This document shows positions 8,305 to 27,725 of a DNA stretch of 42,381 nt, one piece after another (position 1 is the stretch's first letter; each line of letters opens with the position of its first letter). Below the pieces are notes generated by a model, which did not search any database, had not been told where the DNA came from, and saw nothing but the letters and a program-made list of their open reading frames with translations. Location of the stretch: positions 1 to 42,381 of the forward strand of contig NZ_PDDM01000034.1 in assembly GCF_002914585.1 (NCBI RefSeq). Reading direction: 5' to 3'. The position numbers and the translations under genes are program-made. The stretch comes from Pseudanabaena sp. BC1403 (GTDB taxonomy: Bacteria > Cyanobacteriota > Cyanobacteriia > Pseudanabaenales > Pseudanabaenaceae).

Positions 8305-9921
8305 TTATTTCTTTGTTGTATTACAATCCCTACTATCATTGGCTTCAATCCACGCCATCTGATGATCTTTAAGTTCCTGTTTCCATTTTTCGTTACATTT
8401 ATTCTGATCAGCTTTCTTTCCATACAGAGCTAGCGAATAAATCAAATCTAGGCAAAACTTTCCTTTAAAGTAGCCACCATGAGAGTCAACTCTACAGATG
8501 CCAGAGAAATGTCTGATCGCCGTTAAAATGTAATTAAAAAAAGCTGTGAAGGAATTGTTTGCTGTAAATGCACTCAATAGCCGTTTAGAAGAAGGATAGG
8601 ACTTGTTATCAACAAATTTATCTTTGTAATCAGTACAGTCAAAAATTGTGAATGACTTATTTACGTCTGTTTCACAATAGAAAGGTTTCTCTTTAAGTGA
8701 GATGAAATGGATTAATGAACGGACACCAAGGGCATCATTGCTTAAATTCGATACACCATATTTTCGCTCTTGAGTAATTGTAAGATTACCAAGTCGATAG
8801 CCGCCAACGCGAGAATTAGAAGGGAACATGAAAAAGTTTGCTGCTGTAGACGCTAGACGAAGTATCATATCTGCATCGTTGGTGAATAGATAAACTTCCT
8901 TGAAACGTCGTAGACAACTTTGAAGAAAGTTGGAGCGCCCCGTTGTAATTGCCCAAATAGGAATATCAGGCGAGGCAATAACCAGTGTTTTTAGGCTAAA
9001 GAAGTCTCCAAGATTTTGAATCTCTTCGTCTTTCTCTATGTTTTCTGTAGGTTTAGGATTTTCCCCAAAAGGGCCATCAGGTGAATTTTTTTTCCAACGT
9101 TCAATCGCAGATTTATCAAAAACATCAGAGAGAACACGAATAGTGTGGGTTGCCACAAAACAACCAACACTATGAGCGATAAAGCTTAGATTAGCTCTTC
9201 CATACAACTCTAGATGCTCATTATTATTAATGTTTTCTTCTAAAATAATTTCTTTTAATATGACTTGAATCCATCGGACTAGCTCAACAGCATCAAACAC
9301 GCCGTAGTTAGCAGCGCGATCTCGATCTCGAAAATAGACAGCCAAACGAAGAAAAATCAAACAAACCACCATCCCCACTAGGATTAAAGCTAATGATGAC
9401 AGTGGATTTGACCAAAAAAATGCTGTGGATATTCCTGTAATAAGAAATATCCACAGCATCAGAGGCATTGCTTGAATTGGCTCGAGCCACTCGATACATT
9501 TTGATTTGATAATCGGTTCTGAGGACCAAGAAAAGTTGATGAAAAGTACGAAATCTTCAAAATCTTCGATATTTTTTTTAGCTACATCAGCCTCAAATTT
9601 CTTTGCTAAAGGCTCAAAAGTATTTTCTTCAAGACTTTTGAATGGAACGTTAAAACCGTGAATATCCAGAACAATACTAATTTTGTTAAGGACATCCTTA
9701 CCTGATTCTCCCCATTTTGCTTTAATAAAATCTCGTAGAACACGTTTGATAACAGCTATCGGATATGAAGAATCTAGGGAGACTTTTGAAGAAAGATCAT
9801 TGCGGTAATGACTTTCAGCATTTAAGGGGGCGGTGCTACAGATTAAACAATGAGCAAATGGTTTTTCATTTTTTTGGTATCTTTTGATCACAAGTTGGGC
9901 ATTAGATTCTTGTAGATTCAT
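8305..9921 (-). CDS. Membrane-anchored alpha/beta hydrolase-like protein (DUF900-like)
   Basis: 538 aa. A split alpha/beta-hydrolase pattern is visible: strand and oxyanion-type loop VLDIHGFNVPF (about 85-95), INFSWSS (128-134), nucleophile elbow FIAHSVGCF with candidate S251, then VIASPDIPIW and VYLFTNDADMILRLAS, which carries a likely acid. This order matches DUF900 esterase-like proteins. Unusually, two membrane helices (about 152-170 and 174-194) interrupt the fold between the WSS motif and the nucleophile. The C-terminal ~150 residues are unassigned. Substrate and role are unknown. The gene abuts the end of the NuiA fragment frame. Confidence 0.65.
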   Translation of the reverse strand: MNLQESNAQLVIKRYQKNEKPFAHCLICSTAPLNAESHYRNDLSSKVSLDSSYPIAVIKRVLRDFIKAKWGESGKDVLNKISIVLDIHGFNVPFKSLEENTFEPLAKKFEADVAKKNIEDFEDFVLFINFSWSSEPIIKSKCIEWLEPIQAMPLMLWIFLITGISTAFFWSNPLSSLALILVGMVVCLIFLRLAVYFRDRDRAANYGVFDAVELVRWIQVILKEIILEENINNNEHLELYGRANLSFIAHSVGCFVATHTIRVLSDVFDKSAIERWKKNSPDGPFGENPKPTENIEKDEEIQNLGDFFSLKTLVIASPDIPIWAITTGRSNFLQSCLRRFKEVYLFTNDADMILRLASTAANFFMFPSNSRVGGYRLGNLTITQERKYGVSNLSNDALGVRSLIHFISLKEKPFYCETDVNKSFTIFDCTDYKDKFVDNKSYPSSKRLLSAFTANNSFTAFFNYILTAIRHFSGICRVDSHGGYFKGKFCLDLIYSLALYGKKADQNKCNEKWKQELKDHQMAWIEANDSRDCNTTKK

Positions 9922-10826: not shown

Positions 10827-11216
10827 ATGACCACCAAAGAAACCACCGATCGCCTCTCGACCCTATCCAAAGATTTGCTATTCCCAAGCGAATCCGAATA
10901 TCCCCTAGAACCGTTCACTTGGAAATCTGCAACCCTTAAACCTGAAACCATCCTCACGCGATCGCAAAAACCTTCAGACACGCCAATCGAAGCGATCGCC
11001 CTAGATGATTTCTTTGCGCCCGTTGTCACCGATGAAGATTGGTTTGAAGATGAAGATCGAGCGATCGCCCAAAGGTTTCGCGATCTCCAAGCTGCGATCG
11101 CTACATTAGAAAATGTCCAAGTTTTTAAAGTTGGCGCAGTCGAAATTGATGTTTATATCGTTGGTGCGATCGGACCAGATCTAATCGGCTTAAAAACAAC
11201 GGTAATTGAAACCTAA
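10827..11216 (+). CDS. nuiA: Nuclease A inhibitor family protein
   Basis: 129 aa and complete. It matches the NuiA family, whose Anabaena member binds and inhibits the sugar-nonspecific nuclease NucA. Family landmarks are DLLFPSESEYPLEPF near residue 16, ILTRSQKPSDTPIEAI, the DDFFAP segment, the acidic DEDWFEDEDRAIAQRF, and the C-terminal VGAVEIDVYIVGAI followed by GLKTTVIET. No NucA-type nuclease gene is seen in the window, so the partner must be elsewhere or the protein has another target. A fragment of a second copy lies at 8143-8304. Confidence 0.9.
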   Translation: MTTKETTDRLSTLSKDLLFPSESEYPLEPFTWKSATLKPETILTRSQKPSDTPIEAIALDDFFAPVVTDEDWFEDEDRAIAQRFRDLQAAIATLENVQVFKVGAVEIDVYIVGAIGPDLIGLKTTVIET

Positions 11217-11324: not shown

Positions 11325-11386
11325 AAATCTTTTAAGCTCAATTCTCTTTGAGCCACTGCTTAGAGGGAATTGAGCTTAAAAGATTT
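11325..11386. terminator. Bidirectional terminator-like hairpin between convergent genes
   Basis: A perfect 20-bp inverted repeat (AAATCTTTTAAGCTCAATTC at 11325-11344; complement at 11367-11386) with a 22-base loop lies between the NuiA gene and the oppositely directed flavoprotein gene. The right arm covers the stop codon of the flavoprotein gene (11376-11378). Confidence 0.75.
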
Positions 11387-12926
11387 CGTTCAACATATTT
11401 TGCTGCTGCTTCAGCGAAGCCAGAGAATTAGCCAGAATCTCGCCACTGGCGGCAACCGCAGGCAAGCCGATACCAGGGAAAGTGGAATCACCACAACAAT
11501 ACAAATTTGATAAGGGAGTATTAGCATTTGGAAATATCCCCTGTCCTGCCGCGATCGCTGGCCCATAACTGCCGCGATCTCTTCTCAGGAATCTTGCATG
11601 GGTTAGGGGTGTTCCAATCAAAGTAACTTCGCAGCGAGTTCTTATATCGGGAATATAACGCTCTATCCCTTGCCATAGAATTTCAGCCCGTTCTTGTTTT
11701 AATTGTTCATAAGCCTCAGATTTACGATCTAAGCCTGACCATAACTCAAAGGGTTCCGTTGCAGGCGTATAAGCATGAATTGTATGCTTGCCTATGGGCG
11801 AGAGGGATGGGTCTAAGACCGAAGGCATGGATACGGCAACAACATTTTGTGGGGCTGCCACTCCGACTTCCCAATCGTTTACAACTAACCAGTGACAGGG
11901 CAAATCTTTGGGTAAATCCGATGCTTCTATGCCTAGATGTAAATGCATAAAGCTAGGACAAGCGGGGATGTCTTGCCGCTCTTTATGTAATTGGTGCAGT
12001 TTTTTAGGCGATCGCTCTGATAGCGGTAATAATTTCAAGGTATCCCAAATCGATGTTCCTGAAACTACGGCTCGCTTCGCATGAATTGTCTCGCCGTTAG
12101 CTAACCTCACGCCTGTAGCATTTTCCCCATTGAGGATAATTTCTTGCACATGGGTATTGAGCCGTAATTCTCCTCCATGCTTTTGCATTCCCATTACTAA
12201 CGCATCGACAACGACTCCGACTCCACCTTTGGGATAGTCAAGTTGGACATCAGGGCGATACCAATCGGCAAACATAAAGGCAATTTCGGCGGTGAGTGTA
12301 CCATTGGCGGGTAGTCCTGACAGCATGAAGCAGAGCAAGTTCATCCAGTTCAAGACAAATGGGTCGCTAACTTCTGCTTCTAGGATCTTGGAAAAGGGCT
12401 GGGTCAGCATTGGAAGTTGCGGTAGTTCTCTCAGCATCTTCCAGAAGTACTTACCTGCGGATAGAGCTACCTGCCAGTCATTCCGTAGAGCGATCGGTGG
12501 TAAGGCGGTAGCGGCTCTCCCTAGCGGCAACATCACTGTTTGTAATTTTTGCCATTCTTGAACTGCCTGCTTGGTTCTCAGGTTGGTTAAGATTTCGCTA
12601 AATGAGTCGTTCCCAACGGCGGCAAAGAATTGACCTTCGGGCATGGCACATCCCCATCCGTCGTAGGTTAGCCAATCAATTTTCTCTTCTAAAGCATCAA
12701 GCACATGGGCTAAAGGATTGGTGGAAGGTAGTGCAGACATTCCTGAAAATAGCGATGGACCTGAATCAAATGTATAGCCTTGACGAGTAAAGCTATGGGC
12801 GGCTCCCCCTGCAATGCTATGGCTTTCACAAACAATGACTTTGAGTCCATATTTTGCCAGCAGCCCTGCACAGCATAGCCCACCAATACCACTGCCTATT
12901 ACTACTATGTCTGCTACTTGATTCAT
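11376..12926 (-). CDS. FAD-dependent oxidoreductase, CrtISO/phytoene desaturase-like
   Basis: 516 aa flavoprotein of the carotenoid isomerase/desaturase superfamily. The N-terminal dinucleotide fold is VVIGSGIGGLCCAGLLAKYG followed by the acidic VIVCESHSIAGGAAHSF. A mid-protein ADWYRPDVQLDYPKGGVGVV segment and the C-terminal FAD signature NLYCCGDSTFPGIGLPAVAAS are present. Cyanobacterial relatives act on carotenoids, but this superfamily has many unassigned branches and the substrate here is not known. It is divergent (185 bases) from the gene set containing an asparagine-synthetase-like ligase and may belong with it. No carotenoid pathway gene is nearby. Confidence 0.85.
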   Translation of the reverse strand: MNQVADIVVIGSGIGGLCCAGLLAKYGLKVIVCESHSIAGGAAHSFTRQGYTFDSGPSLFSGMSALPSTNPLAHVLDALEEKIDWLTYDGWGCAMPEGQFFAAVGNDSFSEILTNLRTKQAVQEWQKLQTVMLPLGRAATALPPIALRNDWQVALSAGKYFWKMLRELPQLPMLTQPFSKILEAEVSDPFVLNWMNLLCFMLSGLPANGTLTAEIAFMFADWYRPDVQLDYPKGGVGVVVDALVMGMQKHGGELRLNTHVQEIILNGENATGVRLANGETIHAKRAVVSGTSIWDTLKLLPLSERSPKKLHQLHKERQDIPACPSFMHLHLGIEASDLPKDLPCHWLVVNDWEVGVAAPQNVVAVSMPSVLDPSLSPIGKHTIHAYTPATEPFELWSGLDRKSEAYEQLKQERAEILWQGIERYIPDIRTRCEVTLIGTPLTHARFLRRDRGSYGPAIAAGQGIFPNANTPLSNLYCCGDSTFPGIGLPAVAASGEILANSLASLKQQQNMLNEIF

Positions 12927-13110
12927 GGTTTCGATTGGGTAATTAACGCTTTTACTAATGTGGGGAATCAGGTAAAACTTGATTTCACCCAGAAATTTCC
13001 CCTGCTAGCTATAAGGATCTCAGTTTTTTGAGTTAGCCGACTTCACCTATTTACATAGATGAATGAATAACTTTGCATGATAAGATTGAGACAAAATTTG
13101 GGTTTATATC

Positions 13111-13728
13111 ATGCCTGAAAATATAACTCAAGAACAGTTTAATCAGGTAATTGCAGAAATACAAAAGATTTCTGATCAGGGTGGTGGTTCTGTGACCATT
13201 GACCAAGCTAGAGAGATTTTGCAGGAAATGAATCTGCCCTCTGAATTACTAGAAGAAGCTCTGCTGCAAGTTAAACGAAAACAAGTCCAAGCAGAACAAA
13301 ATCGCCTTAATTTTATAGTTGTCGGTGGAGCCATATTAATCTTAACTGTAGCGGTTATAGGAACTTTCTTTTGGCAACAACAGCAAAGTCAAGTCTTAGA
13401 GCAAGTAAAAAGTCAAAGCGGAAAAATTACCCTCGCTGTAAGTAAAGATAAGAGCATTCAAGTGGTTTCTCCTCCGAATGAAATTGCCTATAGTGTAATT
13501 TTAGAAAATGCTCCAATTGGGCAGACTCTATCTATGGGCTGTAATTGGATCAATCCCCAAGGTCTTACGGCGCATCAAAATCGTTACCAAACCAAGCAAA
13601 TTACTACCGCCATCTGGAATACGCAATGCAAATATAAACTTGATTCTGGTGCTGTGCTTGGGAAGTGGCAGGTCACAATGCTGATCAATGATCGTCCTTT
13701 ATCTACGGCTACGTTTGAGGTGAAGTAA
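13111..13728 (+). CDS. Hypothetical one-pass membrane protein
   Basis: 205 aa, family not recognised. The N-terminal ~65 residues are helical and charged, with two short helical hairpins (QEQFNQVIAEIQKIS and IDQAREILQEMNLPSELLEE) and a basic end KVKRKQVQAEQNR-like stretch. One membrane helix spans about 70-88 (FIVVGGAILILTVAVIGTFF), then a glutamine-rich stretch. The C-terminal ~110 residues look like an outward-facing beta-sandwich with two cysteines in MGCNW and NTQCKYK, possibly a disulfide. Its stop overlaps the next start (TAATG at 13726-13730), so it is co-translated with the ligase. It could anchor that enzyme at the membrane. Confidence 0.75.
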   Translation: MPENITQEQFNQVIAEIQKISDQGGGSVTIDQAREILQEMNLPSELLEEALLQVKRKQVQAEQNRLNFIVVGGAILILTVAVIGTFFWQQQQSQVLEQVKSQSGKITLAVSKDKSIQVVSPPNEIAYSVILENAPIGQTLSMGCNWINPQGLTAHQNRYQTKQITTAIWNTQCKYKLDSGAVLGKWQVTMLINDRPLSTATFEVK

Positions 13729-15392
13729 TGGAGGTGGGGATTGCAGGCTTGGGCTTTGTTGGCTCATGGGGTGCAGACTTAGACATACTGATCAATGCTA
13801 ATCCTGACGAATCTTGGCAAAAAGTTACAGTAGACCGCATTGCTATTGATGCTGGTAAAGGGATTCTGACTGATAGTGGAACTGATATCGGAGATGCTTG
13901 GGCAAATGCAGAGCCAACAACTATCACTCTGGGGAGGCAGGCTTTTGGCAGAGTCTCACTTTACTGGTGTCAGACCGAGCAGGGATTATGGTTTGCTACC
14001 CGATTTAGATGGTTACTGCCCTTGGTTAAGCGGGAAATTGATCCTATAGCGGTTTACAGTTACGCTTGCTTTTCCTATGTAACCACACCTCTAACGCCTA
14101 TCAAATCCATTCACGCGATCGCCTCAGGTGGGATACAAACTTGGGAACAAGGACAAATAGTCCCTACAAAAAGACCTTGCCTTACACTCAGCCATTGGCA
14201 AGAGAAAGAAACTCTATTAAATGATGAGGCGACGGCAGTAAAAGAGTTACGAACTTTATTAGAACTGGCGGTATTTAACCAAGTATCTGATTTAACTAAC
14301 GAGACTGTGGGGGTTTTACTTTCGGGAGGGTTAGACTCTGCGATCGTGGCAGCATTACTAAGCCGATCGGGTTTAAAAGTAAGAGCCTACACCCTAGATT
14401 TTGGTGGATATGGCATCTCCGAAGTACCCTACGCCGAGCAAGTGGCAAATTATCTGCAAATTCCCCTGATTAAAGTCGATTGTTCGCCTCAAAAAGTAAA
14501 ACGATCGCTTTTAGAAGTTGCCAAAGCCTTAGACTTACCCTTTGGTGATGGCGTGAGTGTACCTTTTTGGCTGCTTTATCAAACTGCTCTTCAAGACTGT
14601 GACCTATTATTCAATGGCGAAGGAGGAGATCAGTTATTTGGTGGCTGGACGAACAAACCCCTAATTGCGGCAAGTCTCTATCAAACAAGCCCGATTACTT
14701 TTGCTGAACAATATCTTCAAACATTCCATCGATTATGGGGCTACGAAGAACGGGTTTTTAGTTCTATATTTTGGCAGATGGTGAAAGATTGGCAACCAGT
14801 CGATAGCCTTGAGTCCGCCCTAGATGGTTCAGGTTCTCTCCTCTCCCGATTACGCAGGGCAACACTGATGCTTAAGGGAGCGCAGAATATCCATCCCCGC
14901 GCTACTAATATGGCTTTGGCTTTGGGATTGCGACTGCGATCGCCGTTTTGTGACGAAGATTTAGCCCAATGGACATTTGGGGTAGATAGTAGCCTCTTTT
15001 TGCAAGGGGCTTGCGAGAAATACATTATGAAACGGGCGGTCGAACCTTGGCTCCCTGCTGAAATAGTTTGGCGACCGAAACGGGGCATGGGAGTTCCCTT
15101 AACCCAGTGGTGTTTAGAACCGCTATGGCATGACTTAGGTAAGTGGCTTAATCCAGGCTTACTGGAAACCGAGGGAATATGGCGGTCTGATTTGGCTAGT
15201 AGCATTGTTTTTGGGCAACTTAGCGGGAGCCTTCGGAAACGAAGGATAGGGGAAATTCTCTGGCTTTTGCTGCAATGGCAGTTCTGGCAAAGCCAAATGG
15301 GTGTCCCGATTAAGGACTATAGCTGGGGGCATCCATTCCATCTGCCCTATTGGTTTTGGGAACGAATGAATTTATATCGGGAAAATCTATGA
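13728..15392 (+). CDS. Asparagine synthetase-like ligase without glutaminase cysteine
   Basis: 554 aa. Residues 1-~165 resemble the N-terminal glutaminase domain of AsnB, but the protein begins MEVGIAG and lacks the Cys2 nucleophile, so it should not hydrolyse glutamine. Residues ~180-500 form the ATP-pyrophosphatase synthetase domain: SGGLDS PP-loop at 199-204, NGEGGDQLFGG near 296-306, and a C-terminal EKYIMKR with RPKRGMGVPL. Cys2-less members include beta-lactam synthetase and lasso-peptide cyclase, which adenylate a carboxylate and form an intramolecular amide. The substrate here is unknown. It overlaps the following gene (ATGA at 15389-15392). Confidence 0.88.
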   Translation: MEVGIAGLGFVGSWGADLDILINANPDESWQKVTVDRIAIDAGKGILTDSGTDIGDAWANAEPTTITLGRQAFGRVSLYWCQTEQGLWFATRFRWLLPLVKREIDPIAVYSYACFSYVTTPLTPIKSIHAIASGGIQTWEQGQIVPTKRPCLTLSHWQEKETLLNDEATAVKELRTLLELAVFNQVSDLTNETVGVLLSGGLDSAIVAALLSRSGLKVRAYTLDFGGYGISEVPYAEQVANYLQIPLIKVDCSPQKVKRSLLEVAKALDLPFGDGVSVPFWLLYQTALQDCDLLFNGEGGDQLFGGWTNKPLIAASLYQTSPITFAEQYLQTFHRLWGYEERVFSSIFWQMVKDWQPVDSLESALDGSGSLLSRLRRATLMLKGAQNIHPRATNMALALGLRLRSPFCDEDLAQWTFGVDSSLFLQGACEKYIMKRAVEPWLPAEIVWRPKRGMGVPLTQWCLEPLWHDLGKWLNPGLLETEGIWRSDLASSIVFGQLSGSLRKRRIGEILWLLLQWQFWQSQMGVPIKDYSWGHPFHLPYWFWERMNLYRENL

Positions 15393-16555
15393 TAGAAAAT
15401 GCTCTTTTGCTGAAACTGCTGGCAACCTATGGCTCACCATTGTATGTATATGACGGTGATCGCTTTTGGCAAAATCTTCAAGCGATTCCCCAGCAGGTAG
15501 GTTATCCCCTTACCACCTACTGCTTTGCTAGTGTTACCAACGGCAATATTTCATTACTTCAGATCGCCCAAAAGAGTGGATGGGGGATACATGCCAACAC
15601 TCCTGGCGATATTTATTTGGGACTAAACGCGGGATTTTCGCCTGATCAAATTATCTATAGTGGCAGTAACCTTAGTCGGCAAGACATTGCCCAAGTCTTA
15701 GATTGGGGCGTAAGTACCTTCAACCTCGACAGCCTCTGTCAACTAGAGCAGCTTTGTGAAATGAGTTTAACCATTCCTGATCTGCGTTTAGGACTGCGCC
15801 TGAATGACCCAAGTTTAACCGCAGAAAGTCGCATTGGCGTTCAACCACAGGAATTTGCGATCGCAGTAGCGATCGCCGAACGATTCGGTCGCCAAATTCA
15901 GGGACTCCATTTCTATCGCGGCACAGGCACTAATGTTACCAAGGCTTTTACCGTCACGATTGATCGGCTTTTAACTTTAGGAAAGACTCTTCCCCATTGG
16001 CAATATTTAGATTTTGGCGGTGGCTTTGGTTATCCCTATCGTCATGGTAAGGCGGCTTTTGAATGGACGGAGTTTGGGCAGGCAATATCTCAAAAACTTG
16101 AAGGTACTAGCATTCACCTAATTTTAGAACCAGGTCGAAATGTGATTGCCGAATGTGGAATTCTGATGACCACGGTTGTAGCTGTCAAATATCAAGGAGA
16201 AAAACAAATTGTCGGCGTTGATACCACGATCGCTAATCTCACAGCCCCCAATGTTTATGGTGACTACCGCCAAATCATTGCCCTCCAAGAAAATGACAAA
16301 CAAGTAATCACAGATGTTTGCGGCAATACCACTTATTCTGGCGACTATTTAGGCAGAAATATAAACTTACCGCCTTTACAAAGGGGAGATACCTTAGCCA
16401 TTCTTGATGTTGGTGCTTATGGATATGCCATGTCTTCCCATTTTCTCCATCGTCCTAAGCCCGCCGAAGTATTAATTAAAGGAAGCGATCATTACTTAAT
16501 TCGAGAAAGAGAAGACTACAGCGTTTTACTATCAAAGCAAATATCAATGAAATAA
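15389..16555 (+). CDS. PLP-dependent decarboxylase-like protein lacking the cofactor lysine
   Basis: 388 aa with the layout of fold-type III decarboxylases (diaminopimelate/ornithine group): barrel N-terminus, LDFGGGFGYPY glycine loop, EPGRNVIAECGILM, and C-terminal CGNTTYSGDYL followed by LPPLQRGDTLAILDVGAYGY. Where active members have the lysine in a YAVKAN-type motif, this one reads CFASVTNGN, putting valine in the lysine position. The usual H-x-H of strand 'GLHFH' reads LHFYRGTGT. The fold is clear, while normal PLP catalysis is doubtful. The start at 15389 overlaps the ligase stop by ATGA; an earlier ATG at 15350 is unlikely. Confidence 0.8.
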   Translation: MIENALLLKLLATYGSPLYVYDGDRFWQNLQAIPQQVGYPLTTYCFASVTNGNISLLQIAQKSGWGIHANTPGDIYLGLNAGFSPDQIIYSGSNLSRQDIAQVLDWGVSTFNLDSLCQLEQLCEMSLTIPDLRLGLRLNDPSLTAESRIGVQPQEFAIAVAIAERFGRQIQGLHFYRGTGTNVTKAFTVTIDRLLTLGKTLPHWQYLDFGGGFGYPYRHGKAAFEWTEFGQAISQKLEGTSIHLILEPGRNVIAECGILMTTVVAVKYQGEKQIVGVDTTIANLTAPNVYGDYRQIIALQENDKQVITDVCGNTTYSGDYLGRNINLPPLQRGDTLAILDVGAYGYAMSSHFLHRPKPAEVLIKGSDHYLIREREDYSVLLSKQISMK

Positions 16556-16559
16556 ATCT

Positions 16560-17900
16560 ATGAAATGCATTAACTGCGGTACAGACAGCAATTTAAGAGA
16601 CAGGACAAACAATCAAGGTAAATGTCAAAAGTGTGGCACTCGCTTTGCTTTTGAACCAACATCAATGCCAAGCGATTGTCGATTTACTGATCCTAGTTTC
16701 CAAAAGATTTTAAATAATATATCTGCTAACGATACTTTGTTTTTCACAAAAGGGCAGTTATTCCATGCTCTGCCACGACGAAAAAACAGTTCTGTCCGTG
16801 ACTGGCTTCGTGCTTATTTTACATCTGTTGGCTTTTCGGCTTTCCTAGTAGTGATTATAACTCCAGCTCTTGTATCAGATTCACGACTTACATTGTCGTT
16901 TAATGAAGCTTTTATCAAATCAGCATTAATTATTTCTACTGTGAACTCTATCTGGTGGTTTGTGCGATTGTGGCTTATTAGTCAAGATCTTAAATATTTT
17001 CGCCGCGAACGACTGACAAGGGCTAGGTCACTCCAAGCTTTGGGAGTTATCTTACTTAATGCTGCCACTGTAAGTCTTTTTTTGCAACAGTTGCTAGGGG
17101 TTGGAATTTTCTTCATCTTAGGAGCTAGCGCAGTCGGTTTAGGCGTTTGGCAAGCTCGCAGGATTCCTAACACAATGGAAGCCACTCCACCAATAACACC
17201 TCAAATGTTTGACTCATTACTAGAAAAATGGATATCTGCCCACGGAGCGCCTCCAAAATTACTATTGGATACCAATGAGAATAATTTTTCTGTTCCTAAT
17301 TTACCAGGAGTCGATGTTACCAATTACAGCTTTGATCGGTTGATTATCTGTCAGAGCGACAATATTGCCCAGATGTTACTGTCTAATAATTTTCACTTTG
17401 AATATAACAGTGGAATTGTAAGTATAAATCATTATCCTTCTAGTATTTTTGAAACAATAATGATCATGGCAAGGCGTAATCCTGATTTGAAAGTTTTTGT
17501 GTTACATGATTGCAGTCCAGATGGCATTCGGACTCTTAATATGGTCAAATACAACTCCCAATGGTTTGGCGGACAAACAACTGCAATAATGGATGTGGGG
17601 ATTTCCCCTCGACAGATTTTATCTGCCAAGCGATCGGTTGTTACTCAAAGTAGTGAGCAATCAATTAGGGTGTCTTTGGGGTTAGAATCAGAAATTCGCG
17701 ACAATTTAACCACTGAAGAATTAAAATGGTTTGATGCTGGAAATTATGTGCTTTTAGAATTTTTCTCTCCCCAACGCATTCTCCAAACTCTCAGCCGTTG
17801 CTTATATCTAGGAGAACAATCAGGGGCGATCGAAGGTAATGATAGTGATTTAATTATTTTGGGTGGTGATAGTTTCTATGGTGTTGAAAACTTTGGCTAA
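16560..17900 (+). CDS. Hypothetical zinc-ribbon membrane protein
   Basis: 446 aa, family not recognised. It starts with a four-cysteine zinc ribbon (C3, C6, C22, C25). Four hydrophobic segments follow between about residues 85 and 198, including FSAFLVVIITPALV and LLGVGIFFILGASAVGLGVW. The C-terminal ~220 residues are soluble, with alternating strands and helices: FDRLIICQSDNIAQML, then LKVFVLHDCSPDGIRTL. The last piece weakly recalls Toprim-type folds, but I cannot claim it. It follows the decarboxylase-like gene by four bases and ends exactly where the convergent second ligase gene ends (17900/17901). Confidence 0.75.
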   Translation: MKCINCGTDSNLRDRTNNQGKCQKCGTRFAFEPTSMPSDCRFTDPSFQKILNNISANDTLFFTKGQLFHALPRRKNSSVRDWLRAYFTSVGFSAFLVVIITPALVSDSRLTLSFNEAFIKSALIISTVNSIWWFVRLWLISQDLKYFRRERLTRARSLQALGVILLNAATVSLFLQQLLGVGIFFILGASAVGLGVWQARRIPNTMEATPPITPQMFDSLLEKWISAHGAPPKLLLDTNENNFSVPNLPGVDVTNYSFDRLIICQSDNIAQMLLSNNFHFEYNSGIVSINHYPSSIFETIMIMARRNPDLKVFVLHDCSPDGIRTLNMVKYNSQWFGGQTTAIMDVGISPRQILSAKRSVVTQSSEQSIRVSLGLESEIRDNLTTEELKWFDAGNYVLLEFFSPQRILQTLSRCLYLGEQSGAIEGNDSDLIILGGDSFYGVENFG

Positions 17901-19517
17901 CTATCGGTGTTGTTGTATCCATAGTTCCAGACTTACTAACAGCCATAATTTAACCCCATAGCGCTTCCAAGGATCGCCTTGATAGTTTAACCAAGATCGA
18001 ATGGTTTCTGTCTGTAAATAGGGTGCGATCGCCGCATTTTTTGATAGTAATAAATCCTTAGCTTGCTTGTTCCAATACTTTTGAAACCCTAACTGCACAG
18101 GAACCATCATGCCACTCTTGGGGCGATGAATAATTTCTGTCGGTAAAAAATCAATCATCGCTTGTTTTAAGACCGATTTTTCGATCGCCCCAGACACCTT
18201 ACAGTTGATGGGCATACTCAAACTTAAATCTACGATTCGCGGGTCAAATAGAGGCGATCGCCCTTCTATTTCAACTGCTCCTAATAAATTATTAACCTTA
18301 GTCAGAATATGATCTGCGCCCTTAAATTTAATATTGATCATAAATAATTTCTGCAAAAAATCCATGTCTGAATTTAGATCGGATTCAAAAAAGAATGGCT
18401 GATCTTTAACTAATTCCCAAATCTCTGGTTTGAGCAGTTGGGGTAAATCATCTGCACATTTTTGAAATGAACGCAAATAACTTGTGTTTAAATTTCCTCC
18501 ATACACTTGATTAAGTAGCATCGGTTGATTCTTGGGACCACCAAAACAAGGATCACCGCCTTCGCCATTGAGAATGATCGAAACTGATTGCTTTGCTAAT
18601 TTTGCCAATAGTAAATTAGGAACTGTTAAAGGATCGCCGATCGGATCGTCTAAAAGCGCCATTGCTTCTGGTAAAAACTTCCACATATCCCTAAAGGAAA
18701 TTTCTAAAAGTTGATGTTCTAAACCGCAATGTTGGGCTACCAAACTAGAAAACTCTAACTCGTTGGGCAAGTCCTTCCCAAAGTGAATAGAATAGGCAAT
18801 AACTTCCTGTTGATGAATCTTGGCACTCAACGCGGCTACGGCACTGGAGTCTAGCCCGCCCGACAAAAATACCCCTACTTTTTCATGTTCAGGCAAGTTT
18901 TCTCGAACAACTTGTAACAATAGGTTGCGTAAGCGATCGGCATAGTAACCCATATCTTCTATTTCTGACTCACTCTTATCTTCTATTCTCCAAAAGACGT
19001 TTGTTTCTTCTTGAGGCAGAGTTAAAACATTTCCAGAAGACAATTCTTTTACTCCTTTCCACATTGTGCGTTCTCCTGGAACAAAAGCACAACATAGATA
19101 ATCTCTGAGAGCAATGGGGTCTATTTCTGCTTGATGATAGGGGCGTAAAGACTGCAAGCAAGGGGCTATCCACCATGATGAATGGTCGGTTGTGTAATAC
19201 AGAGTCTTGCCACCCACTCCATCTCTGCACAAATGTAGCTGATGTTTCTCACAGTCCCAAATAACAAAAGCAAAAAAGCTGTAAATGTTTCTTAAACATT
19301 CACGACCATCTTTCTCCCACATTTGGACAATATCATTGAGATTAAGTCCTTTTGTTATCTCTCCCACAATTACGAATCTTTTAGATGCACTAAAGGCCAT
19401 AGAAGATGGAGAACCGAATGTAGCAAATAAGTCTTGATCGTGCCAAATAGCATTTTTTGTGGGTATTTTACCGAATCCAACCAGCCAATATGTTTTTGTG
19501 AGGGAAAAATGAGCCAT
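17901..19517 (-). CDS. Second asparagine synthetase-like ligase without glutaminase cysteine
   Basis: 538 aa, same family and architecture as the gene at 13728-15392 but clearly diverged. It starts MAHFSLTK, with no Cys2. The degenerate N-terminal domain spans ~1-170, including SFFAFVIWDCEKHQLHLCRD and KTLYYTTD. The synthetase domain has SGGLDS at 219-224, ILNGEGGDPCFGG at about 313-325, and RSPLFDPRIVDLS with EKSVLKQAMIDFLP and RPKSGMMVPV near the C-terminus. The usual acidic residue after NGEGGD is replaced by Pro-Cys. Two such ligases in one locus suggest two successive amide bonds or two substrates. It is convergent with the zinc-ribbon gene. Confidence 0.87.
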   Translation of the reverse strand: MAHFSLTKTYWLVGFGKIPTKNAIWHDQDLFATFGSPSSMAFSASKRFVIVGEITKGLNLNDIVQMWEKDGRECLRNIYSFFAFVIWDCEKHQLHLCRDGVGGKTLYYTTDHSSWWIAPCLQSLRPYHQAEIDPIALRDYLCCAFVPGERTMWKGVKELSSGNVLTLPQEETNVFWRIEDKSESEIEDMGYYADRLRNLLLQVVRENLPEHEKVGVFLSGGLDSSAVAALSAKIHQQEVIAYSIHFGKDLPNELEFSSLVAQHCGLEHQLLEISFRDMWKFLPEAMALLDDPIGDPLTVPNLLLAKLAKQSVSIILNGEGGDPCFGGPKNQPMLLNQVYGGNLNTSYLRSFQKCADDLPQLLKPEIWELVKDQPFFFESDLNSDMDFLQKLFMINIKFKGADHILTKVNNLLGAVEIEGRSPLFDPRIVDLSLSMPINCKVSGAIEKSVLKQAMIDFLPTEIIHRPKSGMMVPVQLGFQKYWNKQAKDLLLSKNAAIAPYLQTETIRSWLNYQGDPWKRYGVKLWLLVSLELWIQQHR

Positions 19518-21161: not shown

Positions 21162-21743
21162 ATGAAAACCGATTCAATTAATCCGATGAGAGTAACCTAT
21201 AGTCCTCATCGCCGTAAATTCCTCGACAAGATCCAAGATCCTCAGTTAGCCGCATTGACTGCTGCGATTGTGGGAATCGTTATCACCTTTACCTACTCTA
21301 AAGGGATGTATCTAACGGCGCTACTTGCCTTAATTGGTTTACTCTTAGCATTCCCGAAAGTATTGCTGATGCTGTATGGCAAATTCGAGCAAATGATTCG
21401 GCATTACAAGTACAGTCCCGTTTTATTACTGGGCATAGTAATTGGCTTCCTGATCGGCTTGCTGTTGATTTTTACTGTTGAGCCAGCCCAAGCCCAGTTT
21501 TTTAACAAAACCCAGACATGGATGACGGGTGCAATTCCTGGCATCGATACAGGACTTGTTGCTTTGATTTTCAATGTGTTGCGAGCCTTGTTTGTAATCT
21601 ATCTGGGGATTGGACTTGTAAAGGTGATTCAATCAGCCAGAAATGATGATGACTGGCAGCAAATGGCAAGGACACCATTGATTCTGGTAGTGACGGTGAC
21701 GATGGGTGACATTTTGGCAGGCATTATCACGGGTGCAACCTAA
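21162..21743 (+). CDS. virB2: VirB2/TrbC-like pilin precursor
   Basis: 193 aa and first gene of the T4SS operon. The C-terminal 82 residues match VirB2-type pilins: after a hydrophobic stretch a signal-peptidase-like site EPAQAQ (cleavage after A111) releases a protein with two membrane helices (GLVALIFNVLRALFVIYLGI and TPLILVVTVTMGDILAGIIT) joined by a short basic loop. The leader is unusually long (~111 residues) and holds two extra hydrophobic segments (about 29-45 and 49-70). It probably forms the conjugative pilus shaft. Confidence 0.8.
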   Translation: MKTDSINPMRVTYSPHRRKFLDKIQDPQLAALTAAIVGIVITFTYSKGMYLTALLALIGLLLAFPKVLLMLYGKFEQMIRHYKYSPVLLLGIVIGFLIGLLLIFTVEPAQAQFFNKTQTWMTGAIPGIDTGLVALIFNVLRALFVIYLGIGLVKVIQSARNDDDWQQMARTPLILVVTVTMGDILAGIITGAT

Positions 21744-21747
21744 AGCT

Positions 21748-22068
21748 ATGGCAGAAGATTACAAATTTCGTAAGGTCAATGCCATTCTGGGTGCAAGTCC
21801 CAAGATTGGACCTTTTCCCACCGAGCTAATCATTCCTTGGGCAATTATCAGCTTTACCCTGTTCATGATTTGCTACGTGGTTCTAAATCTGCCTTGGTTA
21901 TGGGTATTGCTGATCGTGGCTTGGGGCAATGCGACATGGTGGATTTTAACTGGTTCAAAGCCCTATCGATTTTTATCAAAATTTATCCCTGTGCCACGAT
22001 GGACGCGAGGCGTTTATCAGTACAGAGGAATGCGTAAGCAGGAGGTAAAGAAATATGCAGAGCGTTAG
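21748..22068 (+). CDS. virB3: VirB3-like T4SS inner-membrane protein
   Basis: 106 aa from the ATG at 21748, four bases after the pilin stop. The longer frame from 21706 overlaps the pilin gene and is rejected. It has two adjacent membrane segments (IIPWAIISFTLFMICYVVLN and LPWLWVLLIVAWGNATWWIL) and a basic C-terminus, the usual VirB3 layout. VirB3 works with the VirB4 ATPase. The two genes overlap by 14 bases here, which supports coupled expression. Confidence 0.8.
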   Translation: MAEDYKFRKVNAILGASPKIGPFPTELIIPWAIISFTLFMICYVVLNLPWLWVLLIVAWGNATWWILTGSKPYRFLSKFIPVPRWTRGVYQYRGMRKQEVKKYAER

Positions 22069-24802
22069 TCAGAAGCGATATCGCCACTTTGAAAAAGAGC
22101 TTGCCGTGGAATGTCTGCTCAAGTTTGAGCTACGCGGTCGCACTGTTAGTTGCTTTGTACTCAAGCAAGGTCAATCATCGCTGGAGTCATTGCAGTTTGT
22201 ATTTGGCTGGGAGTCAAAGGGGATTCACACCACCCTCTCAACAGAGCAGGAAGAATCGCTCTTTGAGGCGATTCAATCAGGTTTAAAAGATATTCCTGAT
22301 GGTGAAAAGCTGACGGTGCATTTTGGTTCAGTTAGCTCCGACAGCGATCGCCAACAGCAACTCCAAGAACTATACGAACAAGCGGATACTCCGCAACTCA
22401 AGTTTCTGGTAATGGGTGAAAAGCAGAGGGTGCAGGAATTAGCGAAGTCAGGACTACGCAAACCTAAATTCCTGAGACTTTATGCCACTTATACCCTGCG
22501 TGGTGCGACGGCTGGTGGCAATGATGTGCTTGAAAAAGCACTGGCTTGGATACAGAAACTATCACAGCAACTAATGGGTCAGGAAAAGCAAATTGAGCAG
22601 GAGCGTCATGAGATTGCTTTTGCCAAAGCCTTTACCGATGGGTTCTTGAACTGGGAACAGATTCTGGTGAATCGTATGGGTTTAGACCTGCGACCCTTGA
22701 CTGAGAATGAACTATGGGAACACCTCTGGCGGCAATTTAATAGCAGCAACCCACCTGCAATTCCCCAATTACTGGTGATGTCCGAGCGTGGTGTAGAAGA
22801 GCGCATCAATACGCAGGTGCATCTAAAAACACTATTACTAGAGCGTCCCGATTCAATTCCTTTTGCTGACAATGGCTTTGTGCATCTCAATGGTGAATAT
22901 ATTGGCGTACTCACCTTCATGGATAAACCAGGGGGCTGGGTATCCAAGGGTAAGCAGATGCGCTATCTCTGGGAGGCGATCGCCCGCGACTCTGTAGCAA
23001 ATACGGAAGTATTCTGCCAGTTCACAAGGGCAAATGAAACCATTGTCAAAGCAAATATGCAACGGGTGACGAAGCAAAGCATTGTCTCGCAAGAACAGTC
23101 CGCTTCCTTGAATAACATCAACGTCAATGCATCACTGAAACAGCAAAAAGCAGTCAAGGCTCAAGAAGCGCTTTATGAGGGAGCCATGCCCATTAACGTG
23201 GCTGTAGCTGTCTTAATCCGTCGTCCTAACCTGATCGCCCTTGATGATGCTTGCCGCTATTTTTGCAGTTGCTTCCAGCGTCCTGCGTGGGTAGAGCGCG
23301 AAACTGAATATGCATGGCTAATGTGGAAACAAACCCTACCCGTGACCGTGGGTAATCTGCTGGCTCAACCCTTTCCCCGTCGCCATGTTTATTTATCCGA
23401 TGAAGCAGTTGCTTTTACGGGTTGTGTGATGCCTAGATCGGTCGATGAGACTGGCTTTGAATTGATTACGGAAGAAGGTGGAATGCCTATTTATATCGAC
23501 GTGCGAAAGCATCGCAATATCGGTATTTTCGCGACTACCCGTGCGGGTAAGTCGGTATTGGTATCGGCAGTTTTGTCTCAAGCCCTGTGCCAAGAACAGC
23601 AAATTGTGGCTCTCGATTTCCCAAAACCCGATGGCACGAGTACGTTTACGGACTATACCCATTTCATAGGCGAACTGGGAGCCTATTTTGATATCAGTAA
23701 AGAGTCATCGAATTTACTGGAATTGCCAGATTTACGCACCTTTGACCCCGAACAAGCAGAAGAAAGGCTACGGGATTTCAAATCCTTTGTGGAATCGGCG
23801 CTCATGACAATGGTATTTGGGGCAAGTCAGCATGACCTGTCCTCATCGGAAAGACAACTGCGGCAATTGATTAGGGCTTTTTTAGTACCTGTGGTCAATA
23901 GCTTCTTTGACGATCAGCAAATCAAAGCCAGATACGATCGGGCGATCGCAGAGGGATTCGGTACAGAGGCATGGAGTAATATGCCCACTCTGTCGGACTT
24001 TCTCGATTACTTTTTGAATGAAGGGAAATCAGCTATTACATCCGATGTTGCCGATAGCGAACAGATCGATCAAGCCACCAATCAAATTGTGATTCAACTG
24101 CGGTTCTGGCTTAATTCTAGAATTGGTCGCGCTATTTCCCGTCCATCCACTTTTCGCAGTGATGCGAGACTGTTGGTGTTTGCCCTGCGAAACCTATCGG
24201 AAGCGGAGGATGCGGCAATTTTAGCTTTATCGGCATATTCCGCCGCCCTAAGACGCGCTTTATCGTCACCTGCCAGCATCCTGTTCATCGATGAAGCACC
24301 AATTTTATTTGAATATCCCACCATCTCGGAAATGGTAGCAAGGCTCTGTGCCAATGGAGCCAAGGCAGACATCAAAGTAATTATTTCCGCCCAAGACCCC
24401 GACACGATCGCGAGATCGCCCTCTGCGCCAAAAATCCTGCAAAACCTATCCACCAGATTGATTGGTCGCATCCAACCATCGGCAGTAGATAGTTTTGTCA
24501 GCATCCTCAAATATCCCAGAGAGGTGATTGCCCAGAATGCAGAGGAGCGGTTCTTCCCGAAACGTGAGGCGATTTATTCGCAATGGTTGCTAGATGATGC
24601 GGGCATTTATACGTTCGTGCGCTTTTTCCCTAGTTATATCCAACTGGGCGTAGTGGCAAACAATCCCGATGAGCAAGAGGCACGTACCGCTTACATGCTG
24701 GCGATGGCAGATCCATACAAAGGACTGGCTGCTTTTTCACGCGAGATGGCAAGTGCCTTGAGGGATGGGCGCAAGCTGAAACTGCCCGAATTGGCTGCTT
24801 AA
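22055..24802 (+). CDS. virB4: VirB4-like T4SS ATPase
   Basis: 915 aa, full length for VirB4/TraC-type ATPases, which power pilus assembly and substrate transfer at the inner membrane. The N-terminal ~470 residues are the VirB3-facing domain. The nucleotide site is near 488-500, IGIFATTRAGKSVLVSA: the GKS is present but the usual first glycine of the P-loop is alanine. Walker B is ILFIDEAPIL near 740-749. The motor-domain glutamine motif is IISAQDPDTIA, and the C-terminal LLDDAGIYTFVRFFPS is typical of the family. It is the largest gene of the operon. Confidence 0.88.
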   Translation: MQSVSQKRYRHFEKELAVECLLKFELRGRTVSCFVLKQGQSSLESLQFVFGWESKGIHTTLSTEQEESLFEAIQSGLKDIPDGEKLTVHFGSVSSDSDRQQQLQELYEQADTPQLKFLVMGEKQRVQELAKSGLRKPKFLRLYATYTLRGATAGGNDVLEKALAWIQKLSQQLMGQEKQIEQERHEIAFAKAFTDGFLNWEQILVNRMGLDLRPLTENELWEHLWRQFNSSNPPAIPQLLVMSERGVEERINTQVHLKTLLLERPDSIPFADNGFVHLNGEYIGVLTFMDKPGGWVSKGKQMRYLWEAIARDSVANTEVFCQFTRANETIVKANMQRVTKQSIVSQEQSASLNNINVNASLKQQKAVKAQEALYEGAMPINVAVAVLIRRPNLIALDDACRYFCSCFQRPAWVERETEYAWLMWKQTLPVTVGNLLAQPFPRRHVYLSDEAVAFTGCVMPRSVDETGFELITEEGGMPIYIDVRKHRNIGIFATTRAGKSVLVSAVLSQALCQEQQIVALDFPKPDGTSTFTDYTHFIGELGAYFDISKESSNLLELPDLRTFDPEQAEERLRDFKSFVESALMTMVFGASQHDLSSSERQLRQLIRAFLVPVVNSFFDDQQIKARYDRAIAEGFGTEAWSNMPTLSDFLDYFLNEGKSAITSDVADSEQIDQATNQIVIQLRFWLNSRIGRAISRPSTFRSDARLLVFALRNLSEAEDAAILALSAYSAALRRALSSPASILFIDEAPILFEYPTISEMVARLCANGAKADIKVIISAQDPDTIARSPSAPKILQNLSTRLIGRIQPSAVDSFVSILKYPREVIAQNAEERFFPKREAIYSQWLLDDAGIYTFVRFFPSYIQLGVVANNPDEQEARTAYMLAMADPYKGLAAFSREMASALRDGRKLKLPELAA

Positions 24803-24836
24803 TTTCAAATCACTAGAAACTACTTCCCCCACTGCC

Positions 24837-25802
24837 ATGAACAAGCCAAAAACTCATCAGATTGCAGTCATCAGCCTCGCAACCTGTTCGCTTTTGCTAT
24901 TTAGTCCCCGCCCTGCGGAAGCTCAAGTGCCATTACCACCCGAACTCTCAGGATTAATCCAACAGGTCAATCAACTGATTACCTCGATCGATTCTGGCGA
25001 TTTCTTAAAAGCGCAGATGGACAAGCTACTTGGGCAGTACTTACCACAGGTACAGGCTGCCATTACTCAGTCAATCGGGCAACTGGGATTACCAGATCCC
25101 AGCAAAGCCGAAGCCACAGTCCTTGCTCAGATCGAGGGAGCCTTTAACAGTGCAGGACTAAATGGCACATCGATCAATCAAGGTGTGGTCACCTCGGCGA
25201 TTACGAATACCTCGATCCAAAATGTATTGGGAGAAGAAGGACAAGCAAGGCTGAAGAAAACCCTTGAAGATATGCTCGTTAATGCTCAAAACGTTGGACA
25301 GCTATCTTTGAATACAGCGACAGGTGCGGAAAATAGCACGGCGATCGCTGATGTCTCCCAGCAGATGGCCGCGAACTCTGTTACCTTTGCTCAGAACTCA
25401 TTATCCCGTTCCCAACAGGTAGATGGCTTGTCACAACAGGCGCAAGCCGCCTTATCGACACAGGATGTCCTCAAGATCGTGGCACAACAGAATGCGGGTA
25501 ATTCGGCAATCCTTGCCAATATTGCTTCCCAGTTTGGTAACAATGCCAATCAGGTTAGTAATGTAGCTAATCAACTGGAACTACTATCAAACCAGAACTC
25601 ACAGGTTGCCGAACAGAATAGCCAACGCGCTCAGATTGATGCTCAACAGTTAGCTCTGCAAGTGCAGCAAACCCAACAGGGTGCAACATCTTTGCTTAAT
25701 CTCGACCAGATTAACGCTTCACTCAAGGGCGATCGCCAAGATCGGCTGATCGAGCGTAATTCTACGGTTCAACAACGGATGCCCTATACCTTTCTAAGAT
25801 AG
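24837..25802 (+). CDS. VirB5/TrbJ-like periplasmic protein
   Basis: 321 aa. Signal peptide VISLATCSLLLFSPRPAEAQ has a site after AEA (about residue 29). The mature part is helical and glutamine/asparagine-rich with long predicted coiled coils, for example LEDMLVNAQNVGQL and QLELLSNQNSQVAEQNSQRA. Position between the VirB4 and VirB6 genes, together with this fold, fits VirB5/TrbJ, the minor pilus-tip component. Sequence identity with named members is not obvious, so the call rests partly on order. Confidence 0.65.
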   Translation: MNKPKTHQIAVISLATCSLLLFSPRPAEAQVPLPPELSGLIQQVNQLITSIDSGDFLKAQMDKLLGQYLPQVQAAITQSIGQLGLPDPSKAEATVLAQIEGAFNSAGLNGTSINQGVVTSAITNTSIQNVLGEEGQARLKKTLEDMLVNAQNVGQLSLNTATGAENSTAIADVSQQMAANSVTFAQNSLSRSQQVDGLSQQAQAALSTQDVLKIVAQQNAGNSAILANIASQFGNNANQVSNVANQLELLSNQNSQVAEQNSQRAQIDAQQLALQVQQTQQGATSLLNLDQINASLKGDRQDRLIERNSTVQQRMPYTFLR

Positions 25803-25813
25803 TGAGATAACCG

Positions 25814-26851
25814 ATGCTGATTGCTCAAGCGATTGTCAATAATTCCGAAGAGGTATCGCTAGCGGTACAAGGCTCATGGCAGAACACTTGGGAACTTGCC
25901 TTTAATGGCACTCTTTATCAAGCGCTCACCAATCTGGGATTAATCATTGCCGTGGCTTCGCTGTTGCTATGGATCATCCAATTCACTAAAAACCTGATTG
26001 ATGACCAGAGCTATCGTCAATTTGGCGAGTTAATCTGGCCGGTAATTGTGATTGTGCTGCTCACCAATGGTGGTCAAAACCTGATCGGACTCACCAATGG
26101 GATGCGGACGGTGATTAACAATGCCAATAACTCGGTCTTAGGCGCAATTACCTCCACCGCCCAATTGGAGAAAACCTTATCAGCTCTAGCTGATTTCTCC
26201 GTTACCCAAGAACAAATCATTGCCTACCGTCAGCAATGCAATGGACTCACCAAAAATGAGGAGATGCAGGTCTGCTTACAAGAGGTGAATACCAAAGCTC
26301 AAGCTTTGCTCGGTAACTATCAATCTAACTATGGTGCAGTTGCTGCGGCTCTGGTGGGCAAGTTGCAAAAACAAATCCAGAAGGCAAGTGAAAACCCTCT
26401 CGAAGCCGTTACCAATCTCTTTCCTGGCACGGTGATTTCAAGGTCAATCATGCTGGCGGCGATCGAGACTTTTATGGTAGCGATGCAGTCGGCATTTCAG
26501 GCTTTGATTGAAGTCGGGTTTCTACTGACAGGTTTACTCGGTCCTCTTGCGGTTGGGGCTTCCTTACTACCGATTGGCGCAAAGCCTCTCTATGCATGGA
26601 TGACAGGATTCTGGTCATTGGGCATGGCAAAGCTGAGCTTGAACATCGTCACAGGACTTGCCGCCACTGCGATCGCGGCTTCAGCACAGATGGATACGCT
26701 CTCGATCGCAATTGTTCTCGGACTACTTGCACCAATTCTGGCGCTATCCCTATCGGCGGGTGGTGGCATGGCAATATTTAGCGCCATTCTCTCGGCGGCA
26801 AGTGCTGCCGCTTCCGCAGGTTTAAATATCGGTCTACGCATCTCTAGGTAA
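25814..26851 (+). CDS. VirB6/TrbL-like T4SS membrane protein
   Basis: 345 aa polytopic protein, starting 11 bases after the preceding stop. Segments include YQALTNLGLIIAVASLLLWI near the N-terminus and a C-terminal cluster of about five helices (FQALIEVGFLLTGLLGPLAV, LSLNIVTGLAATAIAASA, LSIAIVLGLLAPILALSLSA). A central loop has two cysteines (RQQCNG, QVCLQE). This matches the TrbL/VirB6 channel component, with a periplasmic loop and C-terminal helix bundle. Confidence 0.78.
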   Translation: MLIAQAIVNNSEEVSLAVQGSWQNTWELAFNGTLYQALTNLGLIIAVASLLLWIIQFTKNLIDDQSYRQFGELIWPVIVIVLLTNGGQNLIGLTNGMRTVINNANNSVLGAITSTAQLEKTLSALADFSVTQEQIIAYRQQCNGLTKNEEMQVCLQEVNTKAQALLGNYQSNYGAVAAALVGKLQKQIQKASENPLEAVTNLFPGTVISRSIMLAAIETFMVAMQSAFQALIEVGFLLTGLLGPLAVGASLLPIGAKPLYAWMTGFWSLGMAKLSLNIVTGLAATAIAASAQMDTLSIAIVLGLLAPILALSLSAGGGMAIFSAILSAASAAASAGLNIGLRISR

Positions 26852-26856
26852 TTCCC

Positions 26857-27690: not shown

Positions 27691-27725
27691 CCTTTCTTAT
27701 TTTGTCGATACTTCAAGGAGTTGTA

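Follow-up and report, generated by a model that had tools for sequence, protein, structure and literature searches.

A conserved system of five genes lies at positions 13111-19517 of contig NZ_PDDM01000034.1 from the cyanobacterium Pseudanabaena sp. BC1403, which is analysed here as one stretch of 42,381 nucleotides, the window. The genes stand in the order mem205, asn1, lysAx, mem446 and asn2; asn2 is convergent and the rest are co-directional. The system is built round mem446, a putative membrane protein with a flexible acidic tail that terminates in Phe-Gly, and the free carboxylate of this end may be the substrate of asn2, the ligase encoded beside it.

Conservation was counted over 81 loci, the window and 80 others, which came from one lysAx scan of bacterial and archaeal genomes and are the best 80 of 156 lysAx relatives. 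Because the best 80 were taken, the sample leans to close homologs: the loci have cyanobacterial record titles throughout and are 55-95% identical to the lysAx query. Locus counts for asn1, mem446, mem205 and asn2 take in fragments. The features of the system in the window are as follows.

13111-13728, + strand: mem205, 205 residues, with N-terminal helices, one predicted membrane helix and a C-terminal immunoglobulin-like beta-sandwich; in 67 of 81 loci, directly before asn1
13728-15392, + strand: asn1, 554 residues, asparagine-synthetase-type ligase without Cys2, PP-loop SGGLDS kept; in 70 of 81 loci
15389-16555, + strand: lysAx, 388 residues, LysA-like fold-III protein with the lysine that binds pyridoxal phosphate (PLP) replaced by Val, phosphate cup kept
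15533-15535, + strand: Val codon where LysA has its catalytic lysine (by alignment, FASVTN for YAVKAN)
16560-17900, + strand: mem446, 446 residues, with a zinc ribbon, four putative membrane helices, a TOPRIM-like domain and an acidic flexible tail; in 76 of 81 loci
16560-16649, + strand: zinc-ribbon part of mem446; C3, C6, C22 and C25 invariant in 47 of 47 aligned rows
17829-17897, + strand: C-terminal tail of mem446, residues 424-446, modelled with low confidence, conserved Phe-Gly end
17901-19517, - strand: asn2, 538 residues, second asparagine-synthetase-type ligase without Cys2, convergent with mem446; local in 48 of 81 loci

The stop codon of mem205 and the start codon of asn1 share the TAATG at 13726, the start of lysAx overlaps the stop of asn1 in the ATGA at 15389, a gap of 4 bases (16556-16559) separates lysAx from mem446, and the stop of asn2 at 17901 abuts that of mem446 at 17900. 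A preliminary description of the window had read all these junctions in the same way and had proposed a cluster of six genes at 11376-19517. All six open reading frames (ORFs) are present at those positions, but the limits of the system are different. The sixth gene, at 11376-12926, encodes a CrtISO-like flavoprotein of the amine-oxidase type by Pfam, with 311.3 bits against TIGR02730 (cut-off 586.9), and was rejected as a member: it occurs in 2 of 81 loci, the window and its close relative L012, also from Pseudanabaena, where it is 95% identical. Pfam places an Asn_synthase domain in both ligases (E 1.4e-52 and 1.5e-63) and a LysA/ornithine-decarboxylase-type match in lysAx, while mem205 and mem446 match no Pfam or NCBIfam family.

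Recurrent synteny across genera had been set beforehand as support for a functional system, and the same order is indeed found in most of the 81 loci. mem205 and asn1 are adjacent in 67 loci (64 within 300 bases, median gap 6), asn1 and lysAx in 69 (65 within 300 bases, median overlap 31 with start codons not refined) and lysAx and mem446 in 75 (71 within 300 bases, median gap 35). mem446 is followed by asn2 on the opposite strand in 34 loci, 23 of them within 300 bases. A local asn2 is missing from 33 loci, and every one of the 20 genomes searched among these has a copy elsewhere, 56-80% identical to the query. asn1 was found elsewhere in six of eight genomes searched from the 11 loci without a local copy; L021, L044 and L064, which also lack a local asn1, lie outside those eight. 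L064 has no separate lysAx ORF either and stands outside the 80 lysAx rows. The unlinked copies of asn2 (18 loci) and asn1 (two loci) have no constant neighbour, the commonest group, in nine, being mixed; the unlinked asn1 of L201 adjoins mem205. The loci without mem446 are L061 and L080, which end just after lysAx, and L052, L082 and L085, which do not.

Across loci, the five families diverge in a correlated way (pairwise Spearman coefficients 0.83-0.92, maximum 0.42 in 200 permutations). This is as expected for parts that are inherited together, and shared species history contributes too. When the ORFs of at least 55 residues from the 81 loci were grouped by single-linkage clustering, no neighbour family beyond the five was found in more than 19 of 81 loci; the next are a family of 343 residues (19 loci) and one of 84 residues (15 loci). 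Seven minor families of 7-19 loci each were scanned, comprising DUF7219, DUF4351, a short-chain dehydrogenase, a subtilase, a sodium/proton exchanger and two without a match. Among the same ORFs there is no recurrent small precursor-like family beside a ligase. The ligase cluster also contained 32 ORFs that match neither ligase and were dropped; they appear to have been joined through the response-regulator part of the asn2 ORF of L012, and of the two that were scanned, one is a kinase/histidine kinase and the other a CHASE2/CHAT protein.

The protein encoded by lysAx belongs to the LysA family over its full length, and the phosphate-cup motifs are common to both. The catalytic lysine, the Cys-Glu pair, HAHIGSQ and the aspartate of LysA, in contrast, are all replaced. 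In an alignment of lysAx with LysA, in which the 80 rows were set against the genome's own LysA, all 80 rows keep each of the GGG, EPGR and GAY motifs. Val takes the place of the Schiff-base lysine in all 80 and in two distant homologs as well, the Cys-Glu pair is Thr-Tyr in all 80, and the Asp that stands 19 residues past the lysine position is His in all 80. HAHIG has become HFYRG in 80 of 80 rows, and the longer HAHIGSQ reads HFYRGTG in 79-80 of 80. The decarboxylase-like protein had already been described as lacking its lysine, as these rows bear out. The window's genome also has a separate LysA with the lysine. Against TIGR01048 (diaminopimelate decarboxylase) lysAx reaches 255.8 bits, below the cut-off of 297.9, and against the model of the XrtA-associated decarboxylase 104.7, far below 478.45.

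A study of a cyanobacterial LysA (PMC12599289) assigns the PLP phosphate to the glycine, EPGR and GAY motifs and the contacts with the PLP ring to Lys99, Asp118 and Arg196, with Cys399 and Glu400 supplied by the other subunit. Judged by these contacts, lysAx has kept the phosphate cup, while at least two of the ring contacts and the pair from the second subunit have been exchanged for another fixed set. Since the replacements are themselves fixed, they suggest a new role rather than decay. Most simply, lysAx may bind some other phosphorylated ligand, or hold PLP non-covalently.

The two ligases share with AsnB, lasso cyclase, beta-lactam synthetase and CarA the Asn_synthase domain, the intact SGGLDS and the R-x-K-[R/S]-G-M motif. 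AsnB, however, has the glutaminase cysteine and GEGSDE, while asn1 and asn2 lack the cysteine and carry GEGGDQ and GEGGDP. Motifs were counted in sequences of more than 400 residues, leaving out three shorter asn1 and four shorter asn2. An MCG-type start is found within the first 120 residues in none of 68 asn1 and none of 46 asn2, which agrees with the earlier reading of both ligases as devoid of Cys2. The start of a distant asn1, MSGICGW, resembles that of a glutaminase with Ser replacing Cys2. The SGGxDS ATP loop, on the other hand, is kept in 68 of 68 asn1 and 46 of 46 asn2; 67 of 68 and 45 of 46, respectively, have the C-terminal R-x-K-[R/S]-G-M motif. Where the AsnB row has GEGSDE, 55 of 68 asn1 have GEGGDQ (12 are off the pattern and one has GEGSDQ) and all 46 asn2 have GEGGDP. 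Since the ATP loop is kept and Cys2 lost, ATP-dependent activation of a carboxylate is plausible for both enzymes, and ammonia from glutamine is not.

Model scores place the ligases at a distance from the named members of the superfamily. For asn1 and asn2, respectively, the glutamine-hydrolysing asparagine synthetase model gives 152.4 and 209.3 bits (cut-off 267.1), the lasso cyclase model NF033535 gives 42.3 and 153.6 (cut-off 525) and the XrtA amidotransferase model gives 144.8 and 217.4 (cut-off 816.9). The nearest named models include the N-acetylglutaminylglutamine (NAGGN) and XrtA amidotransferases, far below their cut-offs, and no named ligase model among those listed is reached at its cut-off. 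By sequence both ligases match structures of AsnB and CarA, and asn2 also those of beta-lactam synthetase. In L012 (9769-11802) the open asn2 frame takes in a response-regulator receiver domain (residues 5-115), which makes an ORF of 677 residues; the asn2 of the window has its own start.

The AlphaFold2 model of mem446, built from 47 sequences, has a mean predicted local distance difference test score (pLDDT) of 83.9. It comprises a ribbon that holds the four invariant cysteines, a set of four helices (79-201), a mixed domain (260-400) and a further helix (404-421). By hydropathy, helices 1, 3 and 4 are clearly hydrophobic and helix 2 is marginal; all four are taken as membrane helices, and the bundle has generic structural matches only. 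Residues 238-420 match the TOPRIM domain of topoisomerase VI-A (Foldseek E 2.8e-4), and VIA superposes 160 residues on that enzyme with Z 12.1, a root-mean-square deviation of 3.7 Å and 17% identity. The next VIA matches are a nuclease of C. glutamicum (Z 9.9), Spo11 (7.9) and JetD (7.8), the last two lying under the tool's mark of Z 8; absence from the VIA list excludes no family. Even though the TOPRIM fold is shared with topoisomerase VI-A, Spo11 and JetD, mem446 adds the zinc ribbon and the membrane helices in front of it. The DxDPxG acids of topoisomerase VI-A and Spo11, which we placed by eye, presumably correspond to HDCSPxG or HNCSPxG in mem446, so that D/N and Ser would stand where the two acids are placed. 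With these residues at the presumed metal site, metal catalysis is doubtful. Fifteen of the 81 loci contain more than one mem446-family ORF, though some of these ORFs are fragments.

The most distinctive feature of mem446 is the exact end of its tail. Phe-Gly is C-terminal in 81 of 84 mem446 ORFs longer than 300 residues, a count that leaves out 12 shorter ORFs of the family, mostly pieces, three of which also end in Phe-Gly. The three exceptions are L014 and L054, which end early, and L081, a second tandem copy; the second piece of L014 ends ESFG. The same end is found in 28 of 28 ORFs from 29 genome-search loci, at least seven of these ORFs sitting on contigs equal in length to those of loci already counted, and in 5 of 5 homologs from a second class of the phylum, whose tails are rich in Gly and Asp. 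Of 991 other ORFs of at least 100 residues in the same loci, taken as a control, four end in Phe-Gly. No comparable conservation is seen at the C-termini of asn1, asn2 or lysAx.

When the 84 tails are aligned from the right, Ser occupies position -3 in 73 and Tyr position -7 in 72; most homologs end Ser-Phe-Gly, and the window's tail ends Asn-Phe-Gly. The entropy is 0.28 bits at each of the last two positions and about 2 to 3 bits from -8 to -25. The stretch before the end, rich in Asp, Ser and Gly, varies in sequence and length, and its Asp positions are not fixed. The pLDDT is below 50 at 424-441 and the tail is mostly predicted to be disordered, so packing is an unlikely reason for the conserved end. 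Two variants of mem446 were also observed. In L172 (7152-8545) the frame is in two pieces, the second of which still ends ASDSFG. L049 (12590-12910) and L171 (8815-9135), which are probably one contig, hold a miniature mem446 of 106 residues, in which the ribbon leads almost directly to a VESFG tail without the TOPRIM domain.

The model of mem205 (mean pLDDT 76.3) has a confident C-terminal beta-sandwich and weaker N-terminal helices, and hydropathy indicates one hydrophobic helix. Foldseek places AlkC, a DNA glycosylase, and the Wzt transporter domain highest; among small proteins, the immunoglobulin-like PA1606 of Pseudomonas matches best (rank 5, E 1.0e-5).

The system is distributed patchily within the phylum. 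lysAx, at E 1e-60 or better, is found in 26 of 292 genomes and mem446 in 39 of 386 genomes sampled, covering 26 of 142 genera; all 26 lysAx-positive genomes are also mem446-positive. The window's own order is poor in the system, with asn1 matches in 4 of 38 genomes, and in the second class mem446 occurs in 5 of 18 genomes, two centre genomes included. Reduced forms exist as well. Genome G081 has lysAx, asn1, mem446 and asn2 in a row, G047 has lysAx, mem446 and asn2, and G041, G055 and G075 have mem446 and asn2 side by side. These last three and G158, which has a 48-residue piece only, are mem446-positive yet not among the lysAx matches. lysAx is taken to be absent from G041, G055 and G075 (the G075 genome is 73% complete) because their best LysA-type matches, which are 33-34% identical, carry the CESGD motif of ordinary LysA; a pattern search of these matches found the LysA lysine motif only in G075. 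Their asn1 matches fall on asn2. Since mem446 and asn2 stand alone in three distant genomes, this pair is the smallest form seen.

In Gloeothece verrucosa the set is carried on a conjugative plasmid, where their annotation reads asparagine synthetase B family, asparagine synthase-related, decarboxylase and hypothetical protein. A search of plasmids gave one relative, at 57% identity, on this Gloeothece plasmid; a second record, from Aeromonas, is at 30.5%, in the identity range of ordinary LysA. In the window, genes of the type IV secretion system type lie downstream of the cluster (21162-38000): a weakly matched VirB4/TraC-like ATPase, TrbI, a coupling protein and a type IA topoisomerase. With conjugation genes beside the cluster, the contig probably represents a plasmid or else an integrated conjugative element. 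Elsewhere in the window are a full-length homolog of the nuclease A inhibitor NuiA (10827-11216, E 2e-39), a protein made up largely of leucine-rich repeats with 12 LRR_4 stretches (41048-42331), and a 538-residue protein with a serine-esterase (DUF676) match below cut-off and no other family (8305-9921).

None of the known systems tested is present with its defining set. The partner genes of lasso, beta-lactam and CarA pathways are not seen beside asn1 and asn2. Carboxyethylarginine and carboxymethylproline synthases have no Pfam match among the 30 window proteins scanned, no targeted search having been made. The B protein of lasso clusters (PF13471, Transglut_core3), whose absence had been remarked on earlier, has no match in the window's genome (the control search was positive in 2 of 14 genomes) and is likewise missing from the Pfam matches of the 30 window proteins and the seven minor neighbour families. 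In XrtA/PEP-CTERM systems an amidotransferase and a decarboxylase occur paired, and these too are Asn_synthase and LysA-type proteins; asn1, asn2 and lysAx, however, are far under the respective cut-offs. Ubiquitin-like and Atg8-like proteins have a flexible C-terminus with an exact terminal Gly, which in the Atg8 family follows Phe. mem446 shares, as an analogy, the flexible end with its exact Gly, but no beta-grasp is seen in its model and there is no E1-type enzyme among the five. Each fold is thus known, but the combination, the lysine-less LysA family, the Phe-Gly-ended membrane TOPRIM family and the minimal pair have no counterpart in the model libraries scanned, and no description of the cluster was found among the listed titles and abstract starts of open-licence papers.

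The chemistry that would join these conserved parts we infer as follows. asn2, the most constant partner of mem446, would adenylate the C-terminal glycine of mem446 and couple the activated glycine to an amine, as asparagine-synthetase-type enzymes without a glutaminase do. lysAx would bind a phosphorylated ligand in the old phosphate cup for PLP and supply or gate the amine side, while asn1 and mem205 may form a further module for ligation or for a membrane partner. An exact, conserved glycine on a flexible tail, beside a ligase likely to activate carboxylates, is best explained if the glycine carboxylate is a substrate; even so, we regard this as possible rather than probable. The broader proposal, a new bacterial type of protein conjugation in which an asparagine-synthetase-type ligase replaces E1 and a lysine-less relative of LysA handles a phosphorylated amine side, is more tentative still.

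Several points weigh against the glycine carboxylate as substrate. A conserved C-terminus can also be a docking motif, and the adenylators of protein C-terminal glycine known to us are E1-like, not of the asparagine-synthetase type. The mem446 model shows no ubiquitin fold, and no beta-grasp is found among its structural matches, although not every part was searched alone. The set is also not complete everywhere: L052, L082 and L085 have lysAx but show no mem446 in the DNA of the locus, the asn1 match of Chamaesiphon G437 is only at the level of asn2, and the Moorena metagenome-assembled genome G440 has none. A DNA pattern for Phe-Gly-stop, a weak test which misses the window's own Asn-Phe-Gly, had 74 matches in the genome against 76 for the reversed control. 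Of 30 matches returned as loci, 15 were read on the forward strand, and the longest open stretch before the pattern was 61 residues. Since the pattern is not in excess, no set of further Phe-Gly-tailed proteins is indicated.

Production of a small molecule stays close to the tail as substrate, although we hold it to be somewhat doubtful. Here asn1, asn2 and lysAx would make an amide, a cyclic amide or a peptide-like osmolyte or signal, mem446 and mem205 would be a membrane scaffold or exporter, and the Phe-Gly tail would only dock the enzymes at the membrane. Amino-acid and natural-product chemistry typically employs proteins of the asparagine-synthetase and LysA types, the nearest ligase models, distant as they are, include the NAGGN and XrtA amidotransferases, and the multiple mem446-family ORFs of 15 loci would fit a scaffold. 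Against it, no further family exceeds 19 of 81 loci, three genomes have mem446 and asn2 only, and the end of the tail is exact, which a docking motif need not be. The term biosynthetic cluster in the preliminary description may be kept only with reserve: a small-molecule product is possible, but the weightiest signal, the Phe-Gly end taken with the mem446/asn2 pairs of three distant genomes, points rather to a protein C-terminus as the substrate of a ligase.

The tail could instead be the core of a ribosomal-peptide-like product, with the rest of mem446 as a membrane leader and the ligases linking a tail Asp to an amine as an isopeptide or lactam, in the manner of lasso cyclases. The variable tail rich in Asp, Ser and Gly and the 106-residue copy of L049, which joins the ribbon almost directly to the tail, are consistent with this, and lasso cyclases are Cys2-less members of the same superfamily. 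The terminal Phe-Gly, however, is fixed while the Asp positions of the tail are not, Transglut_core3 is missing from the window's genome and the lasso cyclase scores are far under 525, so that a product of this kind is unlikely.

Equally improbable is that the genes form a defence or conflict system borne by mobile elements, in which the TOPRIM-like protein would act as effector or sensor, even though the patchy occurrence of lysAx, the Gloeothece plasmid and the secretion genes beside the window's cluster suit it and TOPRIM domains do occur in defence systems. The PADLOC hits are limited to a short PP-loop match to QueC in the ligases (best E 1e-7) and, in mem205, one to DruF at E 0.002. Conservation of the TOPRIM acids is not apparent, no wider neighbourhood recurs, one scan of viral contigs found no relative of mem446, and the divergence of the five families is strongly correlated. 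That unrelated metabolic genes have met by chance is hardly credible, since order and spacing recur in most loci, asn2 is present even where unlinked, in all 20 genomes searched, and mem446 accompanies lysAx in all 26 lysAx-positive genomes; only the CrtISO-like gene and the outer flanks, which are not shared, fit that picture.

Because mem446 is found in 26 of 142 genera and in a second class, the function is not tied to one species. The names asparagine synthetase family and decarboxylase under which the genes stand in Gloeothece are contradicted by their active sites. If the tail of mem446 is a substrate, the system would represent a new chemistry for marking a protein C-terminus; if it is not, the five genes still form a recurrent cyanobacterial system.

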